Assembly (NCBI RefSeq): GCF_000685275.1
Contig: NZ_ARYK01000002.1
Span: 310,001-374,000 of the forward strand
Source of the DNA: Hyphomonas johnsonii MHS-2
Lineage (GTDB): Bacteria; Pseudomonadota; Alphaproteobacteria; Caulobacterales; Hyphomonadaceae
Reading direction: 5' to 3'
DNA length: 64,000 bases
Below the pieces are notes generated by a model. That model was not told the DNA's origin and ran no database searches. It saw only the letters and a program-made list of their open reading frames with translations. The number at the start of each line of letters is the position of its first letter. Position 1 is the stretch's first letter. Positions 5,410-59,337 of the stretch are shown piece by piece. Made by a program: the position numbers and the translations under genes.

Positions 5410-5410
5410 T

Positions 5411-7633
5411 CTAGTTCTCCCCTTTGGTGCTGTGTTCAGTGCCAGCCGAAATGTGCAGGCCAACAGGACCATTCCAGTTGACGGTCTGGTCATCGAGCTG
5501 AATTTGATGGGTCGCGGTCGGCGCCGTATCGTCTGAAAACAGCACCCGGATACTGCCGCCGCTTTTCGGAATGACAGTATAGACATCGCTACGTCCAGAC
5601 CGGCTGATATCAAGGCGCTCTACAGAGCCGCCTGAAAAGACCGTGACTTCCTCGTCATTGTCATATCGACCATGGCGCTCATACACCGAAAGGAACGTCG
5701 CATCCTTGCCCGTCGCGCGAAGGATCATCGCTTGCTCGTTGCGCAGATTGTTGTTGGGGTCGTTCGCTCCGAGCCGGGTAAGGTAGGCACCGAGCGTTTG
5801 GCGCGCCGTGAAGGTCAGGGTGTAGAACTGGTCATCAATCAAAAAGGACAGATCAGACGTCACGCCAGCAGCGACCCCACTGGCTTCGGCAGTTTTCCAG
5901 AGATGCTGGTAACCAGCGCGAATGCCGAGCGGAACGAGTTGTGCGACCGCGTAGGTGAATGGCAGATTCGTCTCGATCAGCTGGCCCTTGAAGTGGACCG
6001 GCAGATCATACGTATGAGGGGCATCACTCGCGCCGCGCACGACATCGATCACGTACGAGCCGCCGCCATCACGATCAACCATTGCCACGACGCGCTGGTA
6101 GGTAACCCCCGTATACGCGGTGGTGATTTCAGCTGCGGCGTAGCTTGCGCCCACGGTGTCATCAAAGGCCAGGATTGTCGGCGTATACGCCTCGCCCTCT
6201 TCCCAATCGCCATCAAACTGACTGGACTGATCGACCACTAATGTGTTGTGCGCCACCGTCTGCTTTGCCCAACTCGCATTTTCCGGCAAATAGCGCCCGC
6301 CATCCTTTGGTTCGACATTCAGGAACCTTGCTGCGCCGTAATCTGCCACCACTTCATCGCCATTGTCATAATAGAGCAGTCCGAGGCGGTCGAAATGCCC
6401 ATGGCCCAAGCCCTGGGACGTTGCCTTGAAGACCAGTGCCGCCGCGTCCGGTTCCGGCCCTGAGCGCAGCGTGATCAGCGCGCCACGGTCGCCATCCGGT
6501 CCGTCCCGCAGTTTTTGTGATTTGAACGCGAATGGTTTTGACTTGCCTGCCGCAATGGCATCTGAAAGCTTTTTGCCTTCCGGGGTCGGCACAATACTTT
6601 TCTGCTGCTGCGCGATGCTGAGCAGGGAGGCATCGCCCGTCAGATCATAGGCTATCGCGACGGCGTAACGCAGCTCGGCTGTGTTCAGGCCTTTTTCCCG
6701 TATCGCATCATTGATCGGAAAGAAGCGTCCGCCATAGGTCTCCTGGATGTTGGCCGTAATGGCTTTGCGCAACACGCCGCCGCGGTGCTCGAAGATCCTG
6801 AGTTCAGGATCACCCCGCTCAATGGCCTGGGCAAACAAGACAAACGGCATCAGCGCGAAGCGTTGATAATAGGGCCCTTCTGCATAGTAACCGTCCGGCG
6901 AGAAAAGCGCGTCCACCTGTTTGATGAACCCGGCGTCTCCTGACTTATCGAGCCCATAGAGCGCCTTTTCGACATAGTCGCGCTCACCCAGCGCATACCC
7001 CGTCATGCCGACCGCGGCGGCGGCCCATGTGCCGTGATTATGGATGCGGTCGAATGTCTGCGGAGAGCCCACTGACAGAAAGTCTGCCATGGGACGAAGG
7101 AGCTGGTCTTCGATCTTGCTGCGCTGTTCGGCGGACAAGTCATCCTGGATGGCATCATAGCCCTGAACAGCATAGACGAGCCACATCGCTTCATTCAGGC
7201 CCTGCCAGAACAGGCGGCTGGGTGTTTCGGGATTGACCTGCGGATGCAGACCGAGCGTTGGATACAGGTCTGAATAATCGGAAAGGATACGCGCTGCGAA
7301 GTCGAGATATTTCGACTCGCCGGTCAGCTGATACAGCATGCCGGCCTCATAGATTGTCTTGGCGTTCTGCTTGTGCTGCTCATGGGTGTAGCCGCCGCCA
7401 GCATCAACGGGGACAGGCACATCGACACCTTCCGCTCGCCGCTCATCAACCGACGCCCTCAATGCGGCGATGGAGTGGTCGAACAGTGTTTCGCCGGACG
7501 GTGCAGCGACGCCTGGACGGGCATGCACATCAACAGGATTTGCGGTTGAGCAAGCTACCAGCGTGATGCCGAACAGCGCCAGGCCTGCCGTGCGGGCCCA
7601 ATGTCCTGGATGGGAGAAGGGTTGGTTCAACAC
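5411..7633 (-). CDS. PL17 oligoalginate lyase, lipoprotein (heparinase II/III fold)
   Basis: This exo-acting oligoalginate lyase (740 residues) would degrade alginate oligomers to unsaturated monomers. An N-terminal lipobox (LVAC, Cys28) predicts a lipid-anchored periplasmic or outer-membrane protein. The alpha/alpha-barrel domain contains the PL17 stretch RIHNHGTWA, with the Asn-His pair of the active site, and a Tyr-rich GYYAEGPYYQRFAL segment. The heparinase II/III-like beta-sheet domain follows from about residue 380 (GHGHFDRLGLLYYDNG). It starts with GTG two bases after the PL6 stop codon. PL15 is the main alternative, but the NHGTWA context favours PL17. Confidence 0.85.
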   Translation of the reverse strand: MLNQPFSHPGHWARTAGLALFGITLVACSTANPVDVHARPGVAAPSGETLFDHSIAALRASVDERRAEGVDVPVPVDAGGGYTHEQHKQNAKTIYEAGMLYQLTGESKYLDFAARILSDYSDLYPTLGLHPQVNPETPSRLFWQGLNEAMWLVYAVQGYDAIQDDLSAEQRSKIEDQLLRPMADFLSVGSPQTFDRIHNHGTWAAAAVGMTGYALGERDYVEKALYGLDKSGDAGFIKQVDALFSPDGYYAEGPYYQRFALMPFVLFAQAIERGDPELRIFEHRGGVLRKAITANIQETYGGRFFPINDAIREKGLNTAELRYAVAIAYDLTGDASLLSIAQQQKSIVPTPEGKKLSDAIAAGKSKPFAFKSQKLRDGPDGDRGALITLRSGPEPDAAALVFKATSQGLGHGHFDRLGLLYYDNGDEVVADYGAARFLNVEPKDGGRYLPENASWAKQTVAHNTLVVDQSSQFDGDWEEGEAYTPTILAFDDTVGASYAAAEITTAYTGVTYQRVVAMVDRDGGGSYVIDVVRGASDAPHTYDLPVHFKGQLIETNLPFTYAVAQLVPLGIRAGYQHLWKTAEASGVAAGVTSDLSFLIDDQFYTLTFTARQTLGAYLTRLGANDPNNNLRNEQAMILRATGKDATFLSVYERHGRYDNDEEVTVFSGGSVERLDISRSGRSDVYTVIPKSGGSIRVLFSDDTAPTATHQIQLDDQTVNWNGPVGLHISAGTEHSTKGEN

Positions 7634-36448: not shown

Positions 36449-37960
36449 TCATCGATTGATTGAAATGACGTCCAGCCCGCGGATGAAGCGCGCCCACTCT
36501 GGCCCCCCGCATACCCACTGGTCGAACAAGGGCTCCATGCGGGCGCTCGCCTGCTTCACCTCATACAGGTCCAGTATCCTGTATGAGATGCCCATCAGCC
36601 GCTTGGTCGTTTCGTATGTGTCGGCGAGCGACCGATCCACCGTTACCTGTGCCGTGCTGATGGGACCATCGCCCCTCTGCGAACTGAGTTCAAATACTGT
36701 GGCGCCATTCGGTGTCTTCGCACCGCAGCGCTTGGAAGCGGTTTCGACATAGGCCAGCACCGTGAACCGGTTTTCCACGATCCTGGAACCACCGCTGTTG
36801 CGGTCATTTTCGGGACGCTCGCGAAAGTGCGGCGCCGGCACTGTCGACGCACCGCCCAGCATGTAGATGTCAAACAGGGCATCATCCCCAAGCGGCCAGT
36901 TCGACGCCGGCTTCTCTTTCTCAAACCAGGCTTGGCGCGCCACAATGCGCGCTTCTCGGGCGAGACGAGCTGCTTCGGCTTCTCTAAGCTTCTCTTCTGC
37001 CAGCTGCAATTGCCAATCAGCCTTCTGTCCATTGCGAACATATCTGGTCACATCGGTGTAGGCGTACCCGCGAATATCCTTGAGCAAACCGCGGAAGCTC
37101 ACGTCTCCGGGCCTGGACGGACGGCTCCAGGAAGAAAGCACCTTTCGTTGCAGAGATGTATTGACGGCCGCTTCCTCCGACAGTTCCTGAGCATCCCTGT
37201 TGATCGGATGCTCCGAAAAGTAGTGACTGACATTGGTCGCCGTCGAGGCTGGGCAAGACTTGGACATCAGTTCATCTATCAGGCCGCTGTAAAGCACCCG
37301 GCGGAGATATTCTTCTGTGATCGGAAAGTCATCGTCCACCTTGTGTACGGCAACCAGTCTGGTCGCGTCTCCGTCTGCGCCGCATCGTTTTTCGTTCGCC
37401 TGTTGCCATTCTCCGGCGCGAAAATGAATATCCAGATCGGGCTGGGAATGTATGCGGAGACCAGCTTTGTGTAACAGATAAGGCCCTTTGGGCTGTGGGC
37501 CTTGTCCGCGGGCCGAATCCACAAGCTGCCTGAACGTGATGTAGCGATTTTTAGCGCCGTTCTTGTCCAGTGTCCGATATGAGATGGGAGCGAAAGCGGT
37601 GTAGAGGGCGTCAGACACATTCCGCGGAAGGGCACACCCATAGAGGGTTCGATAGACGCCTCTGAGATGCTTGTCCTTCATGCTGTCATAGGACCTGCCG
37701 AACACCGGCACGAAGTGCTCGTCTCTGAATATACGGGCCAGATCGACTGTCGTGTCCTGCACACCAACCCATTGCTGGAGCGCCTGGCAGCGTTTCTGGG
37801 CATTGCCACCGAATTTTGTCTGAGCCATCGCCGCGGGCCCAATAAACAACATCATTGCCAGGACCACGAGACATTGCCGCGCCGCACCAATCGCCTGGCT
37901 GCGCATTGGCTGGCGTGCGCACGGGCGCGTTCCTGGATCGCGACGGGTCATGGTCTTCAT
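36449..37960 (-). CDS. Unrecognised secreted protein (503 aa)
   Basis: I do not recognise this gene. An N-terminal hydrophobic segment ending IGPAAMA-Q suggests a signal peptide after a long basic leader; an internal start at MRSQAIGAARQ would give a more normal one. The mature part has several Cys residues (RCQALQQW, YGCALPRN, KRCGADGD, KSCPAS, KRCGAKT, VCGGPEW), and an Ala/Glu/Arg-rich coiled-coil-like helix (EEKLREAEAARLAREARIVA) in the middle. Cys content suggests disulfides in the periplasm. It lies alone between the esterase and the bufferin operon. Confidence 0.7.
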   Translation of the reverse strand: MKTMTRRDPGTRPCARQPMRSQAIGAARQCLVVLAMMLFIGPAAMAQTKFGGNAQKRCQALQQWVGVQDTTVDLARIFRDEHFVPVFGRSYDSMKDKHLRGVYRTLYGCALPRNVSDALYTAFAPISYRTLDKNGAKNRYITFRQLVDSARGQGPQPKGPYLLHKAGLRIHSQPDLDIHFRAGEWQQANEKRCGADGDATRLVAVHKVDDDFPITEEYLRRVLYSGLIDELMSKSCPASTATNVSHYFSEHPINRDAQELSEEAAVNTSLQRKVLSSWSRPSRPGDVSFRGLLKDIRGYAYTDVTRYVRNGQKADWQLQLAEEKLREAEAARLAREARIVARQAWFEKEKPASNWPLGDDALFDIYMLGGASTVPAPHFRERPENDRNSGGSRIVENRFTVLAYVETASKRCGAKTPNGATVFELSSQRGDGPISTAQVTVDRSLADTYETTKRLMGISYRILDLYEVKQASARMEPLFDQWVCGGPEWARFIRGLDVISINR

Positions 37961-38331
37961 GCGTTGCTCCTGATCTGATCCCGGGTTTGCAGTCCGTGCC
38001 GATCATCGTCCGGTTTGTACCGGTGCAGCAACCCTTGTCAAAAGAAACCCCTTCGCATCCTCTCTCACCGCCCCGGGTATACGTGTTTCGGGCGTGCGGA
38101 AGCTGGCTCGTATACTTGTGCAGGCCCATTCGGACATCACCTGCCGCTCGAAATTGAAGTGCCTGCACACTGACGAATGGACTGAATTCGGGGCCGATCA
38201 ATCTCGACTCGCGTATCCGTGAACACGACTGGGCATGTCGTGATTGTCCTTTTCCTCCTGCGCCCGATAGCAGTGGCTTCGCACCGGCAATTCGCCGGGC
38301 GAACCATTGCCACTAAAGAGGAAAACGATTC
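37961..38331. other. Divergent intergenic region before bufA
   Basis: This 371-bp gap lies between the divergent secreted-protein gene and bufA and must hold the bufferin promoter. I looked for the Caulobacter SigF-type promoter (GTAACC-N16-CGAA) and did not find a clean match. A GAGGAAA ribosome-binding site precedes bufA. Nothing else is recognisable. Confidence 0.5.
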
Positions 38332-38703
38332 ATGTCCCAAACCAGCTTTATCGCCAAATCGGTCTTTGCCGGTCTCGCACTCGCCGCTGTCGCAGGCGCA
38401 GCCAATGCCAAACCGAACGCTCAGCTGACAGTCGCTGAAAATGCGCCTGCAGACGTTCAATCCGCAATCACCCAATGGCTGGGTGGCGAACGTCTCGCTG
38501 GCCGGAAAGACAAATGCTACGGCATTGCGCTTGCTGGCGAGAATGACTGCAAAGCTGGCAAAGGCACCAGCTGTGAAGGCACATCAACAGTCGACTTCCA
38601 GGGTAACGCCTGGACCTACGCGCCCAAAGGGTCCTGCGAATTCATCGTGACGCCCGAAGGCGCTGCCTCGCTCAACGAACTCGACCGTAACACGCCCGCC
38701 TGA
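38332..38703 (+). CDS. bufA: Bufferin precursor BufA (DUF2282)
   Basis: This precursor peptide has 123 residues. A signal peptide ends at AANA-K (residue 26). The mature part has four cysteines (62, 73, 81, 102) in the conserved DUF2282 context: [26 protein letters not shown] and PKGSCEF. DUF2282 proteins are bufferins, RiPP metallophores whose cysteines are modified by a MNIO enzyme and which bind copper in the periplasm. It is the first gene of a tightly packed operon with its modifying enzyme next. Confidence 0.9.
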
Positions 38704-38739
38704 TTCCGGCGCGGCCACACAGTTCCTCGGATCACATTC

Positions 38740-39597
38740 ATGAGATTTCCAGCGCCCCCTCCTCCCAGCGCCGGTCTCGGGCTCAAGCCGGAACACTTCC
38801 GGCCGGCGCTCGAGACCGAGGTCGAAGGTTTGTGGTTCGAGGTTCACCCCGAGAACTATATGGTTGAAGGCGGTCCTCGCCTGGCCTGGCTCGCCGCCAT
38901 TCGTGACAAGCGCCCACTGAGCTTTCACGGCGTCGGCGCGTCCCTCGGCGGGCTGGACCCTTTCGATCCCGAACACCTGTTGGCACTCATCGCCCTGATC
39001 GACCGGTTCGAACCATTTCAGGTATCAGAGCACGCGACGTTCTCTGCTCACAAGAACCGCTATCACGCCGATCTGCTGCCTCTTCCCCGGACACAGGAAG
39101 CTGTGCAGCATCTCGCGAATCGGGTCGACGAATTTCAGACTGCACTTGGTCGCCGCATCATCATTGAGAACCCGACCAACTACCTGCCCTTCGCTTGCGA
39201 CCTGGATGAACCCGAGTTCCTGACCGACGTCGCCCGGCGCTCCGGCTGCGGACTTCTCATGGACATCAACAATATCTGGGTAAGCGCCAACAATGTTGGC
39301 ATCGATCCTTGCGCATACATCAGATCCATCCCGGCCAATCTCGTCGGTGAAATCCATGTCGCAGGACATTCACAGGATCCAGCGCTTGGCGCCGAATTCC
39401 TGATCGACAGTCATGACGCGCCTGTCAGCGAGGATGTCTGGAGCTTGCTTGCTCTGGCATTGCGCACATGGGGGCCGAAGCCCGTGCTGATCGAGCGTGA
39501 TGGCAATATTCCGGAATTCAACGACCTGCTCGTTGAGGTCCATAATGCCTCTCGCATCCTGACAGACGCCCGGGAGGTTGCTCCAAATGCGACTTGA
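38740..39597 (+). CDS. bufB: MNIO peptide-modifying enzyme (DUF692), BufB
   Basis: This iron-dependent TIM-barrel oxidase of the multinuclear non-haem iron family has 285 residues. Family metal ligands lie in WFEVHPENYM, LSFHGVGASLGG, SEHATFS, IIENPTNYLPF, LLMDINNIWVSANN and GEIHVAGHS. Family members convert precursor cysteines to thiooxazole- or oxazolone-type heterocycles. Here BufA is the obvious substrate. The gene overlaps bufC by 11 bases. Confidence 0.93.
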   Translation: MRFPAPPPPSAGLGLKPEHFRPALETEVEGLWFEVHPENYMVEGGPRLAWLAAIRDKRPLSFHGVGASLGGLDPFDPEHLLALIALIDRFEPFQVSEHATFSAHKNRYHADLLPLPRTQEAVQHLANRVDEFQTALGRRIIIENPTNYLPFACDLDEPEFLTDVARRSGCGLLMDINNIWVSANNVGIDPCAYIRSIPANLVGEIHVAGHSQDPALGAEFLIDSHDAPVSEDVWSLLALALRTWGPKPVLIERDGNIPEFNDLLVEVHNASRILTDAREVAPNAT

Positions 39598-40372
39598 AAA
39601 GCACATTGAGACCGTCTCGGAATTCGCATCAGGCCAGGCTGGCGCCGTGGCGCTGCAGCCCCTCATGAAAGATCATGCACACCCGGGGCAGCGCGCGAAT
39701 GTTTATCGGAATTCCGGCATACTAGCCTGTGTCGAGGCATTGCGATCCAATTACTCGCGTCTCGCGCGGATGATGGGTGACGAATTCTTTGGCGCAATGG
39801 CGCGTGCCTATGTCGCTTCCAAGCCGCCTTCGGTTCGGAGCCTCGTGGGCTATGGTGCCTCATTGCCCCCCTTCCTCGCCGCAGCCGATTCACAGCACGG
39901 CCTGCCCTGGCTATCGAACCTGGCACTCCTCGACCGCGCATGGCTTGCGGCGCATCTGGCCAGCGACGCCAGGCCACTGTCGGCAGACAGCGTCGCCAGG
40001 CATGGCCCCGACGCATTGATGCACACCCTTATCGATTTGAGCCCCAGCGCTCGCCTTGTTGAAACGGACTGGGGGCTTACCGCTCTCTGGTCCGCCCTCG
40101 ACGCTGGAAACGCTCCGTCTCGGGAGACGCCGATCCCACAACGGACAGAATATGTCCTGTTCTGGAGACCAGATGGAGAGGTCCGAATGCGCCAGCTCAG
40201 CCACGGAGAGTACACATTCCTCCAATCTCTGGCACGGGGCCACGCCATTGGCGCGGCGTGCGAAATGGCTCTCTCTGCCCAGCCCGACATTGACCTTTCC
40301 AGCCTTATCGCCGGCACGTTCGCATCCGGCATCTTTGTCAACGCCACATCACTTCAGGGGACCTCACAATGA
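39587..40372 (+). CDS. bufC: MNIO partner protein (DUF2063), BufC
   Basis: This partner protein of DUF692 enzymes has 261 residues. The DUF2063 core, about residues 1-95, includes HPGQRANVYRNSGILACVEALRSNY and a GDEFFGAMARAYV helix. The C-terminal part resembles a RiPP-recognition winged helix (LSHGEYTFLQSLARGHAIGAAC), which probably delivers BufA to BufB. I prefer the ATG at 39587 with GGGAGG upstream over the TTG at 39578. It overlaps bufD by four bases. Confidence 0.9.
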   Translation: MRLEKHIETVSEFASGQAGAVALQPLMKDHAHPGQRANVYRNSGILACVEALRSNYSRLARMMGDEFFGAMARAYVASKPPSVRSLVGYGASLPPFLAAADSQHGLPWLSNLALLDRAWLAAHLASDARPLSADSVARHGPDALMHTLIDLSPSARLVETDWGLTALWSALDAGNAPSRETPIPQRTEYVLFWRPDGEVRMRQLSHGEYTFLQSLARGHAIGAACEMALSAQPDIDLSSLIAGTFASGIFVNATSLQGTSQ

Positions 40373-40902
40373 AGATCAGAACAACTTTGATATCCGGATA
40401 TACCTGGTTCACACAGAAGGCAGACCTTCTTGAACCCTTTGCCCTACTGGCGGCCCGCCTGGCAGTCGCCCGGGTGTTCCTGATGTCCGGTTTCACTAAA
40501 TGGAACGGTTTCCTGTCATTCAATCCCGACAAGTACGACCTCTTCCTCTACGAGTTCTTCTGCCCGGAGGAAAAGCGCGCCGGGGCCCTCGTGCTTTGCA
40601 CAGACCAAGTCGAGGGAACGTACGCGCCGACGATGCAGTGGATCGTCGAGCGGTTCGCCAACATGGCGGGTATCATGGAGATCCTTCTTCCGATCCTGCT
40701 CATATTCGGGCTGACCTCACGCTTCGCCGCCGCTGGTCTCCTGACGATGACGCTGGTGATCGAGCGCCTTGTTTTTCCAGACGCAGACAGCTGGTGGGGC
40801 AGCCACGTTTGGTGGGCAGCGCTTCTGTTTGTCATCCTGGCCCGTGGCCCGGGTCTATTCTCGGTCGACAGGCTGATCAAACTCGAACGCCCCGGCGTTT
40901 GA
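40369..40902 (+). CDS. bufD: DoxX-family membrane protein, BufD
   Basis: This 177-residue inner-membrane protein has four predicted helices. The DoxX pattern RVFLMSGFTKWNGF is present, but with a long periplasmic insertion (DLFLYEFFCPEEKRAGALVLCTD) carrying two cysteines between helices 1 and 2. DoxX proteins are regular fourth members of bufferin operons; their role is unknown, possibly redox-related. It overlaps bufC and is followed 25 bp later by the FG-GAP gene. Confidence 0.85.
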   Translation: MKIRTTLISGYTWFTQKADLLEPFALLAARLAVARVFLMSGFTKWNGFLSFNPDKYDLFLYEFFCPEEKRAGALVLCTDQVEGTYAPTMQWIVERFANMAGIMEILLPILLIFGLTSRFAAAGLLTMTLVIERLVFPDADSWWGSHVWWAALLFVILARGPGLFSVDRLIKLERPGV

Positions 40903-40927
40903 ACTCAGGACCGGGGGGAAGAAGGAC

Positions 40928-42562
40928 ATGCAGAGTTTTGTGCGCAAATGGTTCTGGTTCGGCTGTGGAGCATTCGGCCTTGGAACGATCCTCGTCATGC
41001 TGCTCAGCTCGAGCTGGCTTGGTTTTCGGCTGTTCCAACTCGAATGGCAACCGCAGGGTAAAACCGATCTGACATTTTCTGCGGTTGATCTGGCATTCCA
41101 CAACCGGTCCGACATCCAGGCCGAGACGGGCGCACTCCCCTTCATGGCCGGGGTCGTCATCAACACCGACCACGATCTTCACGAAGACGTTTTTCTGGGT
41201 GGGGGGCGCGACCAGCCGGATGGCCTGTTCAGCTATAGCAGCGTGTCTGGAAGATTTGAGAGCAGGAGCCAGGCGCATGACCTCTCAAAACCAGCCGGAG
41301 ACGCGACCATGGGCGGTGTTTCTGTTGACGTGGACCGAGACGGCTGGACCGACCTGATTGTTGCGCGAGAGAGCGGCGTTTGGTTGTACCGGAACACGTC
41401 AGGCCGGCTGGGCGACGGCAAGATCATATTCACACCCGAAGATGGCACGACCGCCCTTTCGATTGCGCCAGGAGACGTAAATGGAGACGGTGACGTCGAT
41501 CTCTACGTTTCGGGCTATGTCAGCAACGACAGGGTGGAAGGACAAACGATCTTCACCCGCCCTTACGGCGGATACAGCTACTTGCTGCAGGGCGACGGCA
41601 TGGGCATGTTCGAGGACGTGTCGACTAAATGGGGCATAAGGCGTCAGCACAATACGTTTACGGCCGTCTTTGCCGACTTTGATGACGATGGTGATTCAGA
41701 TCTCGTTGTCGCCGAGGACACTGGCCGGGTCGAAACCTGGAGAAATGACGGCGCACCGCCTTTCAAGCCCCTGGAGAACCCGTCAGTCTACTCTTACCCG
41801 ATGGGCATTGCGGCCGGAGACTTTACGGGCGATGGCCGTCTGGACTTCTATTTCTCAAATGTCGGGCATACGCTGCCATCGGCACTCTTGCGCGGTGACC
41901 TTGAAAAATCGGCCCGGTTCAATCCCGACTACATGCTGTTTGCAGGTGATGGCCATGGCGCGTTCAGTGACCAGGCACAGGCCATGCGGGCTGCCCGCAT
42001 CGGGTTTGGGTGGGGCGTGGTCGCCGCCGACTTCAATCTCGACGGCTGGGAAGATATTGCCGTCGCGCAAAACTACGCAAAGTTTGGACAACCGGCCATT
42101 ATTCACAGGTATGCCGGCAAGGTCCTGCAGAACGCCAAGGGCAAGAGATTCCACCCGGTCGAGAAGCGCGCGGGCGCCGCGAACAGGCTGTTCGCAATCG
42201 CCCCACTCGTCGGCGATTTCGACGGCGACGGCCTGCCGGACCTCATATGGGCCAATCTCCAAGGGCCCACCCGGGCGCTCCTCAATCGCACACCGGATCG
42301 TCATGGCATCAGGATACGCTTGGATGATTCAGTGGCCGCATATACTGCCCGCATCGACGTGGAAGTCGCCGGGCGGTCACTCGTTCGCCAGGTAGTGCCC
42401 GCTCAAGGCCTTTCTTCAGACAGTTCGTCAGACATGTTTGTCGGACTGGGTGACGCAACATCAGCTGACCGTGTGTCGATCCGGTTTTCCACAGGCGCCA
42501 CAAGGTCACTCGACAATGTCGCAGCAGGCCAGGTCATCGACTGGCGGACGGTTCGGCCATGA
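40928..42562 (+). CDS. Membrane-anchored FG-GAP/VCBS repeat protein with UnbV-like C-terminus
   Basis: This 544-residue protein has one N-terminal membrane helix (about 12-33) and an extracytoplasmic beta-propeller. Six calcium-loop repeats can be seen: DVDRDGWTDL, DVNGDGDVDL, DFDDDGDSDL, DFTGDGRLDF, DFNLDGWEDI and DFDGDGLPDL. The last 80 residues (RIDVEVAGRSLVRQV, SSSDMFVGLG, SADRVSIRFSTG) match the UnbV/ASPIC domain seen at the end of CRTAC1-like proteins. It overlaps the next gene by four bases. Function in the bufferin operon is unknown; binding or surface presentation is the simplest idea. Confidence 0.8.
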   Translation: MQSFVRKWFWFGCGAFGLGTILVMLLSSSWLGFRLFQLEWQPQGKTDLTFSAVDLAFHNRSDIQAETGALPFMAGVVINTDHDLHEDVFLGGGRDQPDGLFSYSSVSGRFESRSQAHDLSKPAGDATMGGVSVDVDRDGWTDLIVARESGVWLYRNTSGRLGDGKIIFTPEDGTTALSIAPGDVNGDGDVDLYVSGYVSNDRVEGQTIFTRPYGGYSYLLQGDGMGMFEDVSTKWGIRRQHNTFTAVFADFDDDGDSDLVVAEDTGRVETWRNDGAPPFKPLENPSVYSYPMGIAAGDFTGDGRLDFYFSNVGHTLPSALLRGDLEKSARFNPDYMLFAGDGHGAFSDQAQAMRAARIGFGWGVVAADFNLDGWEDIAVAQNYAKFGQPAIIHRYAGKVLQNAKGKRFHPVEKRAGAANRLFAIAPLVGDFDGDGLPDLIWANLQGPTRALLNRTPDRHGIRIRLDDSVAAYTARIDVEVAGRSLVRQVVPAQGLSSDSSSDMFVGLGDATSADRVSIRFSTGATRSLDNVAAGQVIDWRTVRP

Positions 42563-43230
42563 CAGGGGACACTCCCACTCGCTCTCAAGGGCTTTTCTGG
42601 TTCGGATTGGCTGGCCTCGCCGGCGCTGTGATGACCGGCCTTGGCGAGGGCCTGATCCAGATGGTTCCAGGCGGGGTCTTTACCGATCCCGCCTATGGGT
42701 ACTTTCTGGAGATCAGTCGGAGCAGGCTGATGGTCGGGCACTTTCTAGCCATCGCCTCTGCGCCGCTTTACCTCATGGGATACTGGCATCTGACCGGTAA
42801 TCTTCTGCCCGCATCGCCGAAGATCCGTTTCATCATCTTTGCTGTTTGTGCATGGGCATTCATCCTGGCGACTGTCTGGATGGGTCAGCGCGCGCTGCTT
42901 GCCGCAACTGTCCAGGCGATCCAGGTCGGCGGGGCCGATCCAGACCTGCTTGCGCGACAGGTGTCGTTGCACGAACCGCTCGTCAATGCGCTTCGTATCG
43001 TGACGACGGCATTTTCTATCGTCTGGATCGCCGTCATCCTGAAGGGTGTGTCGCGCTACCCACGCTGGATGGCCCTGTTCAGTCCTGCTGCGCTGCTGGC
43101 ACTCATCTTCGGGTTTTACACAGTTGCGCCGGAATTTGGCTGGCTCGTGCTGCCAACGGCCATGAATACGGCACATGCAGTGCTTTTCATTCTGTCCCTG
43201 CTGAACGTCCGTAAAGCGAGTGAATTGTGA
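42559..43230 (+). CDS. Polytopic membrane protein of the bufferin operon (223 aa)
   Basis: I do not recognise a named family. Six hydrophobic segments fit membrane helices: about 12-30, 58-75, 88-108, 140-160, 170-187 and 198-216. A periplasmic or cytoplasmic loop between helices 3 and 4 (QAIQVGGADPDLLARQVSLHEP) contains the only long polar stretch. No obvious catalytic motif or cysteine pair is seen. Four-base overlaps with both neighbours show that it belongs to the same operon. Confidence 0.7.
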   Translation: MTGDTPTRSQGLFWFGLAGLAGAVMTGLGEGLIQMVPGGVFTDPAYGYFLEISRSRLMVGHFLAIASAPLYLMGYWHLTGNLLPASPKIRFIIFAVCAWAFILATVWMGQRALLAATVQAIQVGGADPDLLARQVSLHEPLVNALRIVTTAFSIVWIAVILKGVSRYPRWMALFSPAALLALIFGFYTVAPEFGWLVLPTAMNTAHAVLFILSLLNVRKASEL

Positions 43231-43604
43231 AGCACCGCCTTGTTCTCGCATTCCTCTCAATACTCGGCCTGGTTCCGGCTGCATCACTGGCAGGCACGCA
43301 CATGTCCACCGGATCTGCGTGCCCCATGCTTGGCCCCCTTCCGGCCTGTTTCGTGGTATTGGCTGGATATGGGCTTGTCTTGGTATCGACGCTGTTGACC
43401 GGCAGGCCGCGTCAGGTCGTTTTCCTCACGGGTTGGTTGCCGGTTGTCGGCCTCGCCGTGATCGCATCCGGATTCGAGCTGACCGCCGGGCATGTTTGCC
43501 CATTGGCGTTTGCGGTGCTTCCGCAATGCTATGTGTCGCTCATCCTTGCGATCTTGATTGGCGGAACCTGGGCATCAGGCTTACTGCACTTTGGCGATCC
43601 ATGA
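43227..43604 (+). CDS. Small four-helix protein with two paired periplasmic cysteines
   Basis: This membrane protein has 125 residues. Hydrophobic segments lie near 4-22, 42-57, 64-82 and 102-119. The basic GRPRQ loop predicts that helices 2 and 3 join in the cytoplasm. Both remaining loops would be periplasmic, and each carries a cysteine pair (Cys32/Cys41 in ACPMLGPLPAC, Cys91/Cys101 in VCPLAFAVLPQC). The two halves look like an internal repeat. Nearby His25, Met26, Met34 and His89 could add metal ligands. It overlaps the preceding gene by four bases. I do not recognise the family. Confidence 0.65.
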   Translation: MKHRLVLAFLSILGLVPAASLAGTHMSTGSACPMLGPLPACFVVLAGYGLVLVSTLLTGRPRQVVFLTGWLPVVGLAVIASGFELTAGHVCPLAFAVLPQCYVSLILAILIGGTWASGLLHFGDP

Positions 43605-43624
43605 TTTGGCATGAGGGCACGCAC

Positions 43625-44929
43625 ATGAGACTGGTTCCATTCTTGTTCGTATGCTTCTTCGTCGCAGGTTGCGCGAGCACCTACCCTGCGGCCATTTCGC
43701 CGAACGCCTGGGAAATGCCCGCCCCGTCTTTGCCACAGCGCGCCCCGTCAATCTGCCGCGAAAATCCGGAGATGCTCTACATCACGAACCGAAACCGCGC
43801 CGACGATCCGGAAGGTTATGGCAACAACCGGTCGAGTTCGATGGCTTTCGGATACGTCACGATAGAGCCTGCGAATATGAGTGCAGAGGCCTATGCAGAT
43901 TACATTTCCGGGCACGCAATCGACAAAGCCCCCCCGACCTACGCTCACGCGCGGATTGCGGAAGCCGTTCGGTTCCCAGGCACGCCGCTCGCCTTTGCGA
44001 TAGAACAGGGCGTGCTCACCCGTGACAGGCAAGCTATTGCCGAATACCAAAACGCTGGCGCGCAATTCCAGGACGAGCTGACCGGCGAGCTGGCGGAGCG
44101 CGGAACCGGAAAAGTTGTGCTCTTCGTGCACGGCTTCAATAACAGCTTTGAAGACGGCGCAATCAACCTGTTTGAACTCTGGTCTGCGTCTGGCAGGTCC
44201 GGCATTCCCCTGCTGTTCAGCTGGCCGACGGGCGGGCACAAGGCCCTTGGCTATCTTGGTGACACCCAGAATGGCGATTTCTCGGTCTACCACCTGAAGG
44301 AAACGTTGCGACTGATTGCGGCGACAGAGGCCGTCGATGAAGTCGTGGTGATCGCCCACAGTCATGGCGCATCGATCGTCACGACGGCTTTGAGGGAATT
44401 GCTGATTGAATCCCGTGGGGCAGACCTGTCGATGCGCGACACCTACCGGATCGAAACACTCATTCTGGCCGCTCCGGATATTGACCTCGGCGTCATGGAG
44501 CAACGCCTCGTCGCCGAAACGTTCGGGATCGGATTCGGGCAGATAGATGTATACCTCTATCCGGAAGACAACGCTCTTGGCATCGCAAGTTGGGTCTTCG
44601 GATCGCCCCGGTTTGGCGCGGCCCGACCCGATCAGATGTCTGCGGAATCGCGCGCCGTGTTTCAGGGCGTAAAGTCTGTCCACTTCATCCTCGTTCAGGA
44701 CGCCGGAGACTATGACCGGCATAATTATTTTCGGCGCCACCCCGGCGTATTATCGGATATTGCGATCACGATGCGCACGGGCGCCAGGCCGGCCGACGCG
44801 GAGCGCCCACTCAAGCACCTCGATCTCAATTTCTGGAGCATCGACAAGACTTACACGCCCTCATACTTCGGATCCTTGCACAGCCCTGACGGCTGCCGTT
44901 TGATAGACGCTCCGCAAATAACCCCCTGA
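43625..44929 (+). CDS. DUF900-type alpha/beta hydrolase lipoprotein
   Basis: This 434-residue protein has a lipobox FVAGC at Cys17. The alpha/beta hydrolase fold of the DUF900 (esterase/lipase superfamily) type shows LFVHGFNNSFEDG and the nucleophile elbow AHSHGAS, with Ser as nucleophile. The long N-terminal region before it may be a recognition domain. I start at the ATG at 43625; the upstream open frame overlaps two other genes. It begins 20 bp after the tetra-cysteine gene and is probably the last gene of the operon and of the island. Confidence 0.8.
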   Translation: MRLVPFLFVCFFVAGCASTYPAAISPNAWEMPAPSLPQRAPSICRENPEMLYITNRNRADDPEGYGNNRSSSMAFGYVTIEPANMSAEAYADYISGHAIDKAPPTYAHARIAEAVRFPGTPLAFAIEQGVLTRDRQAIAEYQNAGAQFQDELTGELAERGTGKVVLFVHGFNNSFEDGAINLFELWSASGRSGIPLLFSWPTGGHKALGYLGDTQNGDFSVYHLKETLRLIAATEAVDEVVVIAHSHGASIVTTALRELLIESRGADLSMRDTYRIETLILAAPDIDLGVMEQRLVAETFGIGFGQIDVYLYPEDNALGIASWVFGSPRFGAARPDQMSAESRAVFQGVKSVHFILVQDAGDYDRHNYFRRHPGVLSDIAITMRTGARPADAERPLKHLDLNFWSIDKTYTPSYFGSLHSPDGCRLIDAPQITP

Positions 44930-45778: not shown

Positions 45779-45855
45779 GGCCCCTTAGCTCAACTGGATA
45801 GAGCACCGGACTTCTAATCCGACGGTTGCAGGTTCAAGTCCTGCAGGGGTCACCA
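45779..45855 (+). tRNA. tRNA-Arg (anticodon TCT)
   Basis: This 77-nt tRNA has acceptor GGCCCCT / AGGGGTC (one G-U pair), discriminator A and encoded CCA. The anticodon loop CTTCTAA within the CCGGA/TCCGA stem gives anticodon TCT, which reads AGA/AGG arginine codons. It lies 16 bp after the NDUFS4 gene. Confidence 0.95.
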
Positions 45856-53000: not shown

Positions 53001-53819
53001 ATGAAACGCCTCACCCTCAAACTGCTTGCCGCCTCGTCGCTGGTGATCGCAATGGCCGGCAGCGCGAGCGCCCACCGCGCCTGGCTGCTGCCTTCGACAT
53101 TCACCCTGTCAGGCGATGCACAATGGGTGACCGTTGACGCGGCCATCTCCAACGACCTCTTCTTCCCCAATCACCACGCCATCGACCCGGCCTCGATCAC
53201 CGTGACAGCGCCGGATGGCTCGCATGTCGCGATCGCGCATGCCGCTGAGGGCGAGATCCGGTCCATGTTCGATGTCCGGATGGACCAGCAAGGCACCTAC
53301 CGCATCTCAACGGCCGGCGCGCCGTCCTATTTCGCCGGCTGGATGGAGAATGGCGAGCGCAAGCGCTGGCGCGGTACGCTCGAAACACTCCGCGCCGAAG
53401 GCATCGACAAGAAGCCGGGCGTTGAAGTGTCCCAGGCCCAGCGCAGCGTCGAAACCTTCGTTACGCTCGGCGCGCCCTCCACAGAGGTCTTCTCGCCAAC
53501 GGGAACGGGTCTCGAATTTCAGCCTGTCACCCATCCGAACGATGTCTTCACCGGTGAACCTGTCAGCTTCAGGCTGTTGCTGGACGGTGCACCTGCCAGC
53601 GGCCTCGACGTCACCATCCTGCCCGGCAATGACCGCTACCGCGACACGCCCGGCGAGCTGTCAGTGAAGACTGATGCCGATGGCGTCTTCACCTTCACGC
53701 CTGAGCTGCCCGGCCCTTACTGGCTCACGACCGGCTCCGAAGGCGAGACAACCGTCGACGGCATGGCGATGAAAGTGCGCACGTCCTACACCGCAACATT
53801 CGAAGCCCTGCCGCTCTAG
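53001..53819 (+). CDS. DUF4198 periplasmic protein
   Basis: This secreted protein (272 residues) has a signal peptide ending SASA-H, so the mature N-terminus is HRAWLLPS, a typical DUF4198 beginning that may bind metal through its terminal His. The rest is beta-rich, with a transthyretin/Ig-like C-terminal domain (RDTPGELSVKTDADGVFTFTP). DUF4198 proteins are often linked to nickel, cobalt or iron uptake. Here it stands between the DUF2271 and ApbE genes, suggesting a metal-binding or substrate-presenting role. Confidence 0.82.
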   Translation: MKRLTLKLLAASSLVIAMAGSASAHRAWLLPSTFTLSGDAQWVTVDAAISNDLFFPNHHAIDPASITVTAPDGSHVAIAHAAEGEIRSMFDVRMDQQGTYRISTAGAPSYFAGWMENGERKRWRGTLETLRAEGIDKKPGVEVSQAQRSVETFVTLGAPSTEVFSPTGTGLEFQPVTHPNDVFTGEPVSFRLLLDGAPASGLDVTILPGNDRYRDTPGELSVKTDADGVFTFTPELPGPYWLTTGSEGETTVDGMAMKVRTSYTATFEALPL

Positions 53820-53821
53820 CC

Positions 53822-54781
53822 ATGCTGAACCTGCTCGTCCCGCACGATGTATCGCGTGCCGACTCCGTGCGCCCTGTGCTCGGTACGGCGTCGATACACC
53901 TGCGCGGCGAGACGATGGGCACGAACTGGTCGCTGGCGTGCCACGCGCCACCGCGGCTGGATGCACAGGACATCCGCTGTCGGATGGAATCGGTCTTCGA
54001 CGAGATCATCCACCAGATGAGCACATGGGAGCCGGACTCCCTGATCAGCCGGTTCAACCGCCTGCCCCCCGGCACCCGGATGGACGTCCCGCCCGCATTC
54101 CGGCAGGTGCTCGCCATAGCGCTGGACGTCGCCCAATTGACCGACGGCGCATTCAATCCCTGCCTCGGCGCCGAAGTGGCAAGGCGCGGCTTTGGCCCCG
54201 ACACCGGCGGCACCGCTGCCACTGACGGCGACCACGCCGCCTGGCGCCACCTCGCTCTCACCGCCGCGTCGCTCACGCGCACCACACCTGCCCTTCTCGA
54301 CCTTTCCGGCGTCGCCAAGGGTTACGCCGTCGACGAGATGGGCCGGGCGTTGCGCGCGCTCGGCATCACCAGCTATCTTGCCGACATCGGCGGCGAGTTC
54401 ACCGCCAGCGGCGTGAAGCCTGACGGCCTGCCCTGGTGGGTCGATATCGAGACACCCACCACCGGTCCCGGCTGGCGCGTCGCCCTCTGCGGGCGTTCCA
54501 TCGCCACGTCCGGCGATTACCGCAAGGTGCGCTTCAGCGACGGCGAGCGCGTGTCACACATTGTCAGCCACGCTGACGCCACGCACCACAGCGGCGACCT
54601 CGCCAGCGTGACCGTCCTGCATGCTTCCTGCGCCCTGGCCGACGCCTGGGCCACGGGCCTCTTCGCGGGCGGCGCAGCGACCGGCCTTGACCTGGCAACT
54701 CAGCACGGCCTCGCGGCCCTTTTCCAGTTCCGCAACCAGCCTGCGCGCGCGTCTCCCGTCCTGGCGCAGATGCTGGCCTGA
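53822..54781 (+). CDS. apbE: ApbE, FAD:protein FMN transferase, without signal peptide
   Basis: This flavinyltransferase has 319 residues. Family motifs are GETMGTNWSL near the start, a middle DLSGVAKGYAVDEMGRAL, TSGDYRK and a C-terminal ALADAWATGLF. It attaches FMN from FAD to Thr or Ser of partner proteins, here probably Thr99 of the DUF2271 protein. The ORF starts right after the DUF4198 stop, and no signal peptide or lipobox is visible. Most proteobacterial ApbE proteins are periplasmic, so this one may act in the cytoplasm before export. Confidence 0.9.
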   Translation: MLNLLVPHDVSRADSVRPVLGTASIHLRGETMGTNWSLACHAPPRLDAQDIRCRMESVFDEIIHQMSTWEPDSLISRFNRLPPGTRMDVPPAFRQVLAIALDVAQLTDGAFNPCLGAEVARRGFGPDTGGTAATDGDHAAWRHLALTAASLTRTTPALLDLSGVAKGYAVDEMGRALRALGITSYLADIGGEFTASGVKPDGLPWWVDIETPTTGPGWRVALCGRSIATSGDYRKVRFSDGERVSHIVSHADATHHSGDLASVTVLHASCALADAWATGLFAGGAATGLDLATQHGLAALFQFRNQPARASPVLAQMLA

Positions 54782-54829
54782 CGCCTCGGGGCAATGCGCT
54801 GCCCCGCGCCATCGGGCCGATCAAAACTA

Positions 54830-54848
54830 TTTGAGAATTATTCTCAAA
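54830..54848. promoter_or_regulatory. Perfect palindromic Fur-box before the TonB receptor
   Basis: TTTGAGAATTATTCTCAAA is a perfect 19-bp palindrome around a central T, about 70 bp upstream of the receptor start. GAGAAT/ATTCTC is the core of Fur and Irr/RirA-like iron boxes. The receptor, piuC and exb-tonB genes downstream fit iron repression. Confidence 0.75.
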
Positions 54849-54871
54849 AGGGGTTGCGCCAACTTTTTATT

Positions 54872-54892
54872 GCGAGTAATTCGCATTCTCAA
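54872..54892. promoter_or_regulatory. Second, weaker iron-box-like palindrome
   Basis: The sequence GAGTAATTCGCATTCTC (54874-54890) keeps the outer arms of the GAGAAT-ATTCTC palindrome and includes TGCGA-N5-TCGCA. It lies 25 bp before the receptor start codon, so two operators may act together. Confidence 0.45.
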
Positions 54893-54917
54893 TATGGGTC
54901 ACCAAGGGAACCAAACG

Positions 54918-57104
54918 ATGCCGTTCAAGACTGCCGAAACCGGCCAAACCAAACTCAACACGCTTCTGGCAACCACCGCGCTGGGGCTCGTTCTGTTTCC
55001 GCTGGCCGCACAGGCAGACCCGGTCGAGATCGGCGAAGTCACGATCGAAGCCGAAGCGCCGGACTACAAGGCCGAGCCCGAGTCGCCGAAATACACCGCG
55101 CCCCTGATCGACACGCCACGCTCTGTCACCGTCGTCACCGAGGAAGTGTTCGAGGACACAAACGCCACCACCCTCGTCGATGCGCTGCGCACCGTGCCGG
55201 GCATCACCATGGCCATGGGCGAGGGCGGCCAGCCCTTCGCCGACCGGCCCTTCATACGGGGATACGAGTCCACCAGCGGCATCATGGTCGACGGCATCCG
55301 TGACGCCTCGGCCCAGTCACGCGACGTATTCAATCTCGAACAGATCGAAGTCTCGCGCGGTGCCAATGGCGCGCTTGCCGGCCGTGGGGCACCGGGCGGC
55401 AGCCTCAATCTCGTGACCAAGACTGCCAAGGCGGACGACTTCATCGCCGGCTCTGCCGCTGTCGGCAACGCAGACCACCAGCGCGCCACACTCGACATCA
55501 ACGAGGCGCTCTCCGACACGGTCGCCGTTCGCGTCAACGGCATGTGGCAGGATTCCGGCATTCCGGGCCGCGACGCGGTCTTTGACAACCGCTGGGGATT
55601 CGCGCCGACCATCACCTGGGGCCTCAATACGCCAACGGAATTCACCGCCAGCTATTCCCACTATGAAGGCGACGGCATCATCGACTATGGCCATCCGCTC
55701 GATCTTGACACCGGCCAGCCCGTCAGCGGCATCGACCCCGACAATTTCTACGGCCTGCTCAACCGCGACTTCCACGATACCAAGACCGATTCCGGCCAGT
55801 TCGAGGTCTCCCACGCCCTCAACGACTATGTGACACTCCGCAACATCACGCGTGTCTCGCGCTCCAGCAACGCCTACATCGCCAGCAACCCGGACGACAG
55901 CCAGGGCAATATCGTCAACGGCCTTGTCCTCAGGAACGTGAAGAGTTCCAACTCCACCACTGAAAGCTTCGTCAACCAGACCGACCTGCAGGCAGGCTTC
56001 AGCCTCGGCGGCCTGGACCACAGCCTCTCGACCGGCGTCGAATTCGCCTACGAGACCACGGACCGCAGCACCTATGCCGTGTCCCAGCTTGCGCCCGGCG
56101 GAATCGCAATCCCGCGCGGCGAATGCGACCTGTTCGGCGCCGGCGCACCGAGTGGCTACAACTGCACAGACCTTTACAATCCGAACCCGAACGATCCGTG
56201 GACGGGTGCCATCTCACGCAATCCTGTCACCCGCACGAACGTCGACACGTTCGGTGCCTATGTCTTCGACTCGATCACCCTCAGCGAAAAATGGATCCTC
56301 AATCTCGGCCTCCGGCTCGATGATTTCCGCACTGACACGTCCACCGACCTCAACAATGACGACACGCTGTTCACCTATCAGGTCGGCGCCGTCTACAAGC
56401 CGGCGTTCAACACCAGCGTCTACGCCTCCTTCGCCACCTCAGCCAGTCCGTCCGGCGTGACGGCGGGCGACGGCGGCGACAATATTTCGATTTCGGATGA
56501 AGACCTGAAACCGGAACGGGCCCGCAATTACGAACTCGGCGTGAAATGGGAACCGGAGGGCCGCGACATCGCCCTGAATGCCGCGATCTTCCGAACAGAG
56601 GTCGTTGACGGGCACGTTGCCGTCGAGGCCGGCCGGGGCGCACCGCAGCAGGCGATCGGTGAACAGCGCGTCCAGGGCATCGAACTCAGCGCCACCGGGT
56701 CCATCACCGACGCGTGGGACATCTTTGCCGGGTACAGTTATCTCGACTCTGAAATCATCGACGCGGGTCCGATCAACACGGCCGATGTCGGCAACCAGAT
56801 GCCGAACACGCCGGAAAACAGTTTCACGCTCTGGACGACATATGACGTCCTCCCGCGCCTCACCGTCGGCGGTGGCACCAATTATGTGTCGAAACGCTTC
56901 GGCAATACGGCCAACACGAAGAGCGTCGATGGCTACTGGAAGTATGACGCCATGGCGTCCTACGACCTGACCTCGCACATCGCGCTCCAGCTCAACGTCA
57001 ACAACCTGACCGACGAACGCTATTATGACCGCGTCTACACCACGCACATGGCCACCATTGCGCCAGGCCGGTCGGTTGTCGGCAGTCTCAAATTCAAGTT
57101 CTAG
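54918..57104 (+). CDS. TonB-dependent siderophore receptor (FhuA/FiuA-like)
   Basis: This 728-residue outer-membrane receptor has a signal peptide ending near AAQA-DP. The plug begins [17 protein letters not shown], carries [18 protein letters not shown] and the conserved [22 protein letters not shown], and the protein ends in LKFKF, a typical barrel C-terminus. It resembles catecholate or hydroxamate siderophore receptors (CirA/Fiu group, usually next to PiuC). The ATG at 54918 has AAGGGA upstream. It is downstream of two iron boxes and starts a transport operon. Confidence 0.93.
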
Positions 57105-57123
57105 CCCCGGCGGAAATCCCTGC

Positions 57124-57804
57124 ATGCTGATCCGAATTCCAGAAGTCCTCACCAAGCCGGATGTCACAGGCATCCGTCAGCTGATCGACGGCGCAGACTG
57201 GCGCGATGGCAACGCCACGTCCGGCGCCCAGGCAGCGCGCGCAAAGCGCAATGCCCAGCTGGCGGATGACAGTCCGCAGGCGCGCGAGGCAGGTGACCGG
57301 GTGCTCGATGCGCTGCAGCGCCATCCCCTGTTCATTTCGGCCGCCCTGCCCCTCAAGGTCTTCCCGCCCCTGTTCAACCGTTACGAAGGCGGCCAGAATT
57401 TCGGCAACCATGTCGACAACGCAATCCGGCCGATGCGTGGCAACGACTTTCGTATCCGGACGGATGTCTCTGCGACACTCTTTCTGGCCGAGCCGGACAC
57501 GTATGACGGCGGCGAACTCGTCATTGATGACACCTACGGCTCGCATTCGGTCAAGCTGCCTGCGGGCGACATGATCCTCTATCCGTCGACCAGCCTGCAC
57601 CGTGTCATGCCGGTGACACGCGGCGCGCGGGTCGCCTCCTTCTTCTGGGTCCAGAGCATGGTGCGCGATGACGGCCAGCGGACGCTCCTGTTCGAACTGG
57701 ACAGCAGTATCCAGGCCCTGAACGCTACCACTCCCGATCATCCGTCGGTCGTCCAGCTGACCGGCGTCTACCACAACCTCATACGCCGGTGGGCCGATGC
57801 CTGA
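57124..57804 (+). CDS. piuC: PKHD-type Fe(II)/2-oxoglutarate dioxygenase (PiuC/YbiX)
   Basis: This 226-residue dioxygenase of the PiuC/YbiX family lies next to a siderophore receptor, as is usual. The start [13 protein letters not shown], the metal pair in [10 protein letters not shown] and the distal His with the 2-oxoglutarate Arg in [14 protein letters not shown] fit the double-stranded beta-helix core. The conserved C-terminal YHNLIRRWA is also present. The biological substrate of PiuC is unknown; a siderophore-linked modification is often proposed. Confidence 0.93.
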
Positions 57805-57840
57805 CCCACAGTCCCGACCGATCCTGAAAGGCCACTGACC

Positions 57841-58545
57841 ATGGACTCAACCACCCCCCTACCCGCCACCGCCCAAACGGTGAGCAGTCCTTTCGACCTT
57901 GTCATTGCCGGTGGTCCGGTTGTCTGGCTGCTCATCGCGATGTCCGTGGTGGCGCTGACGATCATCATCTACAAACTGGTCCAGTTCGCGGTCGCTGGTC
58001 TCGCCCGCCGCAACAATGTCGAAAAGGCTGTCAGCCTGTTCCGCGACGGTCGCAAGCGTGAAGCGCTCGCCGCCGTCCAGGGCGCGAAGGATCCGGCTTC
58101 GGCCACGGTCGCCACGGCCATTCGCGGGTCCCTGCGCAGCGATGTGACAGAGGCGGCCGTGCGCGAAGAGGTCGAGCGCGTCGCCTCGTCGGAGATCAAC
58201 ACCCTGCGCTCGCACATCGGCCTGCTCGAAATCATCGGGTCGCTGGCACCCTTGCTTGGCCTGCTCGGCACAGTGCTTGGCATGATCGAGGCCTTCCGCG
58301 CGATGGAGGCGGCCGGCCGCAACGTCGATCCGGCAATCCTGTCCGGCGGCATCTGGGCAGCCCTGCTGACCACCGCGGCGGGCCTCATCGTCGCCATCCC
58401 CGTCGTCGCCGTCGCCAACTGGTTTGACCGCTCCATCCTGCTGGTTGCCCGGCGCACCGAGGACGCCGTCACCCGCATCTTCACGCCTGACCTCACCCGA
58501 CGCACCGAAAGCGCACCAGATGAAATTCGCGCAGCCACAGCTTAA
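57841..58545 (+). CDS. exbB: TonB-system energiser ExbB
   Basis: This MotA/TolQ/ExbB family proton-channel subunit has 234 residues and three helices, near 20-42, 135-158 and 180-202. LLEIIGSLAPLLGLLGTVLGMIEAF and the SGGIWAALLTTAAGLIVAIPVV helix contain the conserved polar residues of the channel. It works with ExbD and TonB encoded downstream. The exbD gene overlaps its end by 26 bases. Confidence 0.93.
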   Translation: MDSTTPLPATAQTVSSPFDLVIAGGPVVWLLIAMSVVALTIIIYKLVQFAVAGLARRNNVEKAVSLFRDGRKREALAAVQGAKDPASATVATAIRGSLRSDVTEAAVREEVERVASSEINTLRSHIGLLEIIGSLAPLLGLLGTVLGMIEAFRAMEAAGRNVDPAILSGGIWAALLTTAAGLIVAIPVVAVANWFDRSILLVARRTEDAVTRIFTPDLTRRTESAPDEIRAATA

Positions 58546-58921
58546 GCCGGCAGGGACGAAGATCAGCCTGACGCCGCTGATTGACGTCGTTTTCATCCTG
58601 CTCCTTTTCTTCATGTTGACCTCCACGTTCGCTGACCGGCGCAGCATGGACATGGTGACACCCGCCCTGGCATCCGTGCCGGACGTGACAGACGCGCTCG
58701 TCACGCTGGACCTCACGACCGAAGGCATCCGGTTCGAAGGGCAGAGCGTGGCACCGGACGCGCTTGTCGCCACGCTCCAGCCGCGCCTTGCCTCGGGCGA
58801 CCCTGTCGTCATCCAGGTTGCGCCGGGCGTCGGCCTTGAAGCCTGCGTATCGGTCATGGACGCCCTCGAAGCGGCCGGGGCCCGGTCGATCTCGCTGCGC
58901 CGGCAGGACAGCCTCCAATGA
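58520..58921 (+). CDS. exbD: ExbD, with the membrane Asp (Asp22)
   Basis: This 133-residue ExbD/TolR protein has one membrane helix, LIDVVFILLLFFMLTSTF, and the essential aspartate (Asp22) in TPLIDVVF. The rest is periplasmic. It starts at the ATG at 58520 inside the exbB end; the longer frame from 58424 is a shadow of exbB. It overlaps the following exbD-like gene by four bases. Confidence 0.92.
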   Translation: MKFAQPQLKPAGTKISLTPLIDVVFILLLFFMLTSTFADRRSMDMVTPALASVPDVTDALVTLDLTTEGIRFEGQSVAPDALVATLQPRLASGDPVVIQVAPGVGLEACVSVMDALEAAGARSISLRRQDSLQ

Positions 58922-59337
58922 AGCTGCGCGCCGGATCAGACACGAAACGAATGGCCAGCATTGATGATCGCATCATGCCGCTCATCAATATCGTGTTCCT
59001 GCTTCTGATCTTCTTCCTCGTCGCCGGCGCCATCCGCGAGGCCGAGCCCATGGAGGTTGATCCGCCAGCCTCCACAGCGGAAGCCACCAGCGACGCCGCC
59101 GCCCTGATGATCTACATGTCCGCCGATGGCCGCCTCGCACTGGGTGACCGTGTCCTGCAAGGCGTGGACCTCAACCAGGCCCTGGCCGGCGCCCTCGGCG
59201 CGGATCCTGACCAGCCCGTCCGCATCGTTGCCGACAAGGGTGTCGAGGCGGTGAAAGTGGTTGAAGTTCTCGAAGCACTGCGCGCCGCCGGTTCCAGCCG
59301 GGTCAAACTGACGACCAGGTTGCAGGCCGCGCCATGA
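58918..59337 (+). CDS. Second ExbD-like protein, membrane Asp replaced by Asn
   Basis: This 139-residue protein has the ExbD layout: a short cytoplasmic tail, one helix (LINIVFLLLIFFLVAGA) and a periplasmic domain. At the position of the essential Asp it has Asn24 (MPLINIVF). Without that carboxylate it should not carry protons alone, so it may form mixed complexes with the first ExbD. Tandem exbD genes also occur in xanthomonads and some alphaproteobacteria. It overlaps both neighbours by four bases. Confidence 0.85.
   Translation: MKLRAGSDTKRMASIDDRIMPLINIVFLLLIFFLVAGAIREAEPMEVDPPASTAEATSDAAALMIYMSADGRLALGDRVLQGVDLNQALAGALGADPDQPVRIVADKGVEAVKVVEVLEALRAAGSSRVKLTTRLQAAP

Follow-up and report, generated by a model that had tools for sequence, protein, structure and literature searches.

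The DNA considered here is a 64 kb stretch of the genome of Hyphomonas johnsonii MHS-2 (hereafter the window), in which eight predicted genes follow one another on the + strand between positions 38332 and 44929. The first four, bufA, bufB, bufC and bufD, make up a bufferin operon of the Buf1 type. The other four, referred to here as unbV, DUF6796, cys4 and duf900, appear to be an independent and apparently undescribed envelope cassette that would have become joined to bufABCD in the Hyphomonas lineage. The eight open reading frames (ORFs), their coordinates and the gaps after DoxX are exactly as claimed in an earlier sequence-only reading of the same DNA, and its recognition of bufA-B-C-D by DUF2282, DUF692/MNIO, DUF2063 and DoxX was borne out by matches above the Pfam and NCBIfam cut-offs. 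The comparisons covered 105 genomes of the family, 385 at class level, 398 at phylum level and 72,556 plasmids.

The hallmarks of Buf1 bufferins are thiooxazole-modified cysteines and copper binding. The precursor gene bufA (38332-38703, +) matches PF10048 (DUF2282) with 76 bits against a cut-off of 22.4; its product has a hydrophobic signal peptide, which ends in ANA as judged by eye, and four cysteines (62, 73, 81 and 102). The gene for the MNIO maturase, bufB (38740-39597, +), was assigned through the NCBIfam equivalog NF050167 (336.5 bits, cut-off 310 bits) and also matches PF05114 (298.6 bits). It is followed by bufC (39587-40372, +), which encodes the DUF2063 partner protein (PF09836, 56.4 vs 27.2 bits), and by bufD (40369-40902, +), which encodes a DoxX-family membrane protein (PF07681, 37.1 vs 23.6 bits). 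The DoxX protein belongs to a subtype with a Cys pair, FFCPEEKRAGALVLC, in an extra loop, invariant in six homologues with or without an adjoining cassette. These family matches identify 38332-40902 as a bufferin operon of the standard Buf1 kind, which shares its precursor, MNIO, DUF2063 and DoxX genes and their order with Caulobacter CC3254-CC3257 and the gig operons. It differs from them in having no adjacent sigF/nrsF genes and no SigF motif upstream, and in running on into four more genes, while a published survey of bufferins found extra conserved genes in extremely low proportions only (PMC12452194).

The junctions from DoxX to unbV, unbV to DUF6796, DUF6796 to cys4 and cys4 to duf900 measure 25, -4, -4 and 20 bp, respectively. 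In unbV (40928-42562, +), a single N-terminal hydrophobic segment, taken as a membrane anchor, precedes FG-GAP propeller repeats (PF13517, 128 bits) and a C-terminal ASPIC/UnbV domain (PF07593, 43 bits), as seen with the orthologues aligned. The repeats and the domain are those of CRTAC1 and other FG-GAP-UnbV proteins, from which the window protein differs as a membrane-anchored subfamily encoded beside DUF6796; CRTAC1 homologues on plasmids are less than 30% identical to it. The DUF6796 gene (42559-43230, +; PF20599, 42.5 vs 26.9 bits) encodes a six-helix polytopic membrane protein. Its AlphaFold2 model is all helical, with a predicted local distance difference test score (pLDDT) of 87.7, and no convincing relative was found among solved structures, the best matches being general seven-helix proteins (Z 9.2, root-mean-square deviation (rmsd) 5.1). 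The third gene, cys4 (43227-43604, +), starts with GTG and encodes a small four-helix membrane protein of 125 amino acids (aa) with no Pfam match. The last, duf900 (43625-44929, +; PF05990, 140 vs 20.5 bits), encodes a predicted lipoprotein of the alpha/beta hydrolase family with the lipobox VAGC, whose Ser246, Asp285 and His366, invariant across eight aligned homologues, may act as a triad with the Ser as nucleophile. A 569-aa ORF with a GTG start at 43220-44929 was rejected as a start-codon artefact, the lipoprotein beginning at 43625. The window proteins thus pass the Pfam cut-offs of the DUF6796 and DUF900 families, both listed in Pfam without a described function. Our literature searches found no paper that names DUF6796 and none that ties UnbV to copper, and no DUF6796 homologue was found among the plasmids.

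The eight-gene order is contiguous in five genomes, namely that of the window and those labelled G039 (Hyphomonas chukchiensis), G049, G056 and G057, and a contig from a further metagenome-assembled genome (MAG), which ends within duf900, shows this order from bufB onwards. The named records with the linked cluster are Hyphomonas chukchiensis, Hyphomonas sp. BRH_c22, HGW-Alphaproteobacteria-18 and Hyphomonas sp. S2_81. Because it recurs in these other genomes, the order is not due to chance; G039 and G049 score identically against the window and may be almost the same, so that we count fewer than five independent copies. Identity to the window copy ranges from about 35% (cys4) to 86% (DoxX). 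Within the family, an MNIO gene occurs in 15 of the 105 genomes and close orthologues of unbV, DUF6796 and duf900 in six, all six of which also bear an MNIO gene; in every bufferin-bearing genome found in the Hyphomonas lineage, the cassette follows closely upon bufABCD. The flanks vary: upstream of the cluster lies an unrelated 503-aa gene in the window and, in G039, G056 and G057, tetR with two CMD/AhpD-like genes, the cluster in these three genomes being followed by a thioredoxin-like gene. Taken together, the kept order and the MNIO gene in six of six cassette-bearing family genomes suggest selection for the pairing. Both observations count against the idea that the cassette is a passenger, with an envelope job of its own, brought behind bufABCD by co-transfer or by a useful stress promoter, and with products that never meet bufferin or copper, for the order has been held across deeply diverged copies with different flanks.

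Across the linked copies the gap between DoxX and unbV is only 3-25 bp, which leaves little room for a promoter, and bufABCD and the four following genes are predicted from their packing to form one transcription unit. The element CGTGA-N16-CGTGA (38218-38243, +), recognized by comparison with relatives, is shared by the window, G056 and G057, where some 115 bp separate it from the ATG of bufA; the same motif was seen twice in the window against 0.32 expected per 64 kb. In a Henriciella MAG (G021) the spacing is 1 bp shorter and the first half degenerate, and G039 retains the second half only. We regard this element as no more than a candidate operator or promoter that may control the joined operon, because it is not the SigF motif and does not precede the separate cassette modules of G021; shared control of those dispersed modules by it was rejected on the latter ground. 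The SigF promoter motif known from Caulobacter (PMC3511200) was sought upstream of bufA as GTAACC-N16-CGAA with at most one mismatch, and no match was found. A scan of the region for sigma-70-like promoters gave none that was convincing, and terminator-like matches there (9 against 6.6 expected) are near chance.

Elsewhere, the cassette and the bufferin genes occur apart. The cassette is missing from the other nine family genomes with an MNIO gene, most of which belong to one genus (INDEPENDENCE from bufferin), and in G021 bufABCD, unbV-DUF6796 and cys4-duf900 each occupy a contig of their own, none of them close to a contig end, with the 4-bp overlap of unbV and DUF6796 retained even there. 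In a tree of BufB, G021 is sister to the linked group, and the cassette-less G088 is nested within that group at weak support (0.79), which leaves the history of the linkage uncertain. In two MAGs, one of them labelled Parvularcula, unbV-DUF6796 adjoins queA/tgt, tRNA-modification genes identified by eye, and a duf900 relative is found at another place; an MNIO gene is present in only one of these MAGs, on another contig. In G116, from a different alphaproteobacterial family, genes for an extracytoplasmic function (ECF) sigma factor, unbV, DUF6796 and cys4 are co-directional; in G511, a 99% complete genome of another class, duf900, an AraC-type regulator, an ECF sigma factor, DUF6796, unbV and cys4 lie within 6 kb. 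Neither genome gave an MNIO match, and in both three cassette genes are contiguous behind the ECF sigma factor gene, with the fourth about 2 kb off in one. Orthologues of DUF6796 are rare (matches in 4 of 385 class genomes, two of the matches weak, and in 2 of 398 phylum genomes), and unbV adjoins every close one found. The association of duf900 is looser, with a 34% relative in G015 that has no other cassette gene. A lone unbV relative was also observed by peroxiredoxin and cytochrome c genes in the genome of another group (L071 8984-10861), and its contig also bears an MNIO gene, at a distance of about 100 kb.

We read the cassette as independent because it is split in G021 and present in G511 and G116 without an MNIO match, and it is not needed for bufferins, since these occur widely without it. 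Judged by this distribution, bufferin biosynthesis does not include the four genes, and the earlier proposal that counts them as members of the bufferin system proper is not supported. Its expectation that they would co-occur with bufABCD was confirmed within the Hyphomonas lineage. The same facts, that is, the cassette without MNIO in G511 and G116, its separation from bufABCD in G021 and G106, and its absence from most bufferin loci, favour the passenger explanation, which we consider a serious contender even though, with the conserved order in view, we lean against it. The sequence-only reading had further suggested, as a possibility, a role of the four genes in displaying, exporting or breaking down the modified peptide. 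Their tight packing behind bufABCD would fit such a role, and binding or cleavage of a peptide is conceivable for a propeller protein and a predicted lipoprotein hydrolase. However, the cassette is present where no MNIO gene was found, BufA carries its own Sec signal peptide (PMC12452194), and the Pfam and NCBIfam scans gave no protease or exporter family, DUF900 being an alpha/beta hydrolase family. The comparisons turned up nothing in favour of this role, and we consider it improbable.

In the AlphaFold2 model of cys4 (pLDDT 87.4), four helices are arranged with Cys pairs between helices 1 and 2 (C32/C41, CX8C) and between helices 3 and 4 (C91/C101, CX9C), the second Cys of each pair starting helix 2 or helix 4. 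Since basic residues flank the cytoplasmic ends, both Cys loops are probably periplasmic. The four cysteines behind the earlier label tetra-cysteine are not all constant: the first pair is invariant in seven homologues, the second is not. Foldseek placed a VKOR structure, 4nv5, at the top (probability 1.00), and VIA-align of cys4 against VKOR gave Z 12.3 and rmsd 2.9 over 117 aligned residues, with unrelated helical bundles also reaching Z 10-11. VKOR structures hold most of the top ranks in both comparisons, at weak E values, and unrelated four-helix bundles come close. The VKOR-like fold is a prediction, and a resemblance to VKOR and DsbB would lie in the modelled bundle of four helices, with one Cys pair following helix 1 and the other following helix 3.

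From the VKOR-like prediction, the Cys pairs, the duf900 residues and the architecture of the proteins, we infer an envelope thiol-redox or repair module, and a role in envelope thiol/disulfide homeostasis is our best guess for the cassette. As established in other Buf1 systems, BufB and BufC would install copper-chelating groups on BufA, and the Sec-exported BufA would buffer periplasmic copper. The predicted topology would place three parts in the inner membrane, DUF6796, cys4 and the anchor of UnbV; the UnbV propeller would lie in the periplasm, and DUF900 would be a lipoprotein. In the mechanism that we find most likely, cys4 would shuttle electrons between the membrane and thiols of the periplasm, much as VKOR or DsbB does, UnbV and DUF6796 would scaffold it, and DUF900 would hydrolyse some envelope ester or amide. 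The cassette would thus keep the thiols and disulfides of the envelope in order during metal or oxidative stress. In Buf1 bufferins, a disulfide joins the outer two Cys (PMC12452194); under copper stress, the cassette could close this bond in BufA or repair disulfides that copper has damaged or mis-oxidised.

Our preferred reading is thus that two modules have been joined, a canonical Buf1 operon and an independent cassette co-opted into the copper-response operon for envelope thiol/disulfide upkeep, and we would give it an even chance of being right. In its favour we count the eight-gene order kept among diverged copies, the short DoxX-unbV gaps, the cassettes found apart from bufABCD or without an MNIO match, the predicted fold of cys4, the AhpD-like and thioredoxin-like genes flanking the cluster in G039, G056 and G057, the disulfide between the outer Cys of Buf1 bufferins and, as copper context, the CopB and P-type ATPase genes upstream in G057. 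Several observations weigh against it. The second Cys pair is kept in five of seven members and lost in the Hyphomonas-lineage MAGs G056 and G057; the spacing is CX8C/CX9C and the CXXC active site of VKOR and DsbB is not present; no match to VKOR was found in Pfam or among Protein Data Bank (PDB) sequences, even permissively; the E value of the Foldseek match is weak (0.057), and four-helix bundles match one another easily. Moreover, neither AhpD-like nor thioredoxin-like genes accompany the operon in the window, the upstream element does not recur before unbV or cys4 in G021, and bufferins without the cassette are common. A bolder version, in which a transferable four-gene envelope system with a VKOR-fold, non-CXXC double-dithiol protein acts as a periplasmic thiol-redox relay, wired in Hyphomonas to the copper response and finishing or protecting bufferin, we hold to be rather doubtful, slightly more so than the passenger explanation.

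Several neighbouring features were recorded. In the window, the 503-aa gene (36449-37960) is divergent from bufA and encodes a secreted-looking protein with no Pfam match, and a tRNA-Arg (TCT) gene (45779-45855), 0.85 kb downstream of the cluster, is a candidate integration site. Base composition was uninformative as to a compositional island, the GC fraction being 0.59 in the cluster, 0.59 to its left and 0.65 to its right. Further downstream, genes for a DUF4198 protein, a TonB-dependent receptor, ExbB and ExbD (53001-59337) form a likely metal or cofactor uptake cluster. In the related loci, tetR with the two AhpD-like (CMD) genes and the downstream thioredoxin-like gene lie at 5017-6928 and 16036-16419 of L009, 5169-6824 and 13802-14245 of L010, and 4949-6796 and 13748-14191 of L011, respectively, and a related CMD gene adjoins the bufferin cluster of L046. 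In Hyphomonas sp. S2_81 (G057; L010 722-4677), the bufferin operon is preceded, at a distance of a few kb, by genes for CopB, a DUF302 protein and a metal-binding P-type ATPase.

Past descriptions give bufferin operons a core of four genes, and here one lineage has a conserved extension of it, made of proteins with no assigned function that form a module of their own elsewhere. The cluster offers a handle on DUF6796, on the membrane-anchored UnbV proteins and on a possible VKOR-like family missed by sequence models, as well as on how bufferins gain the periplasmic disulfide between their outer Cys.

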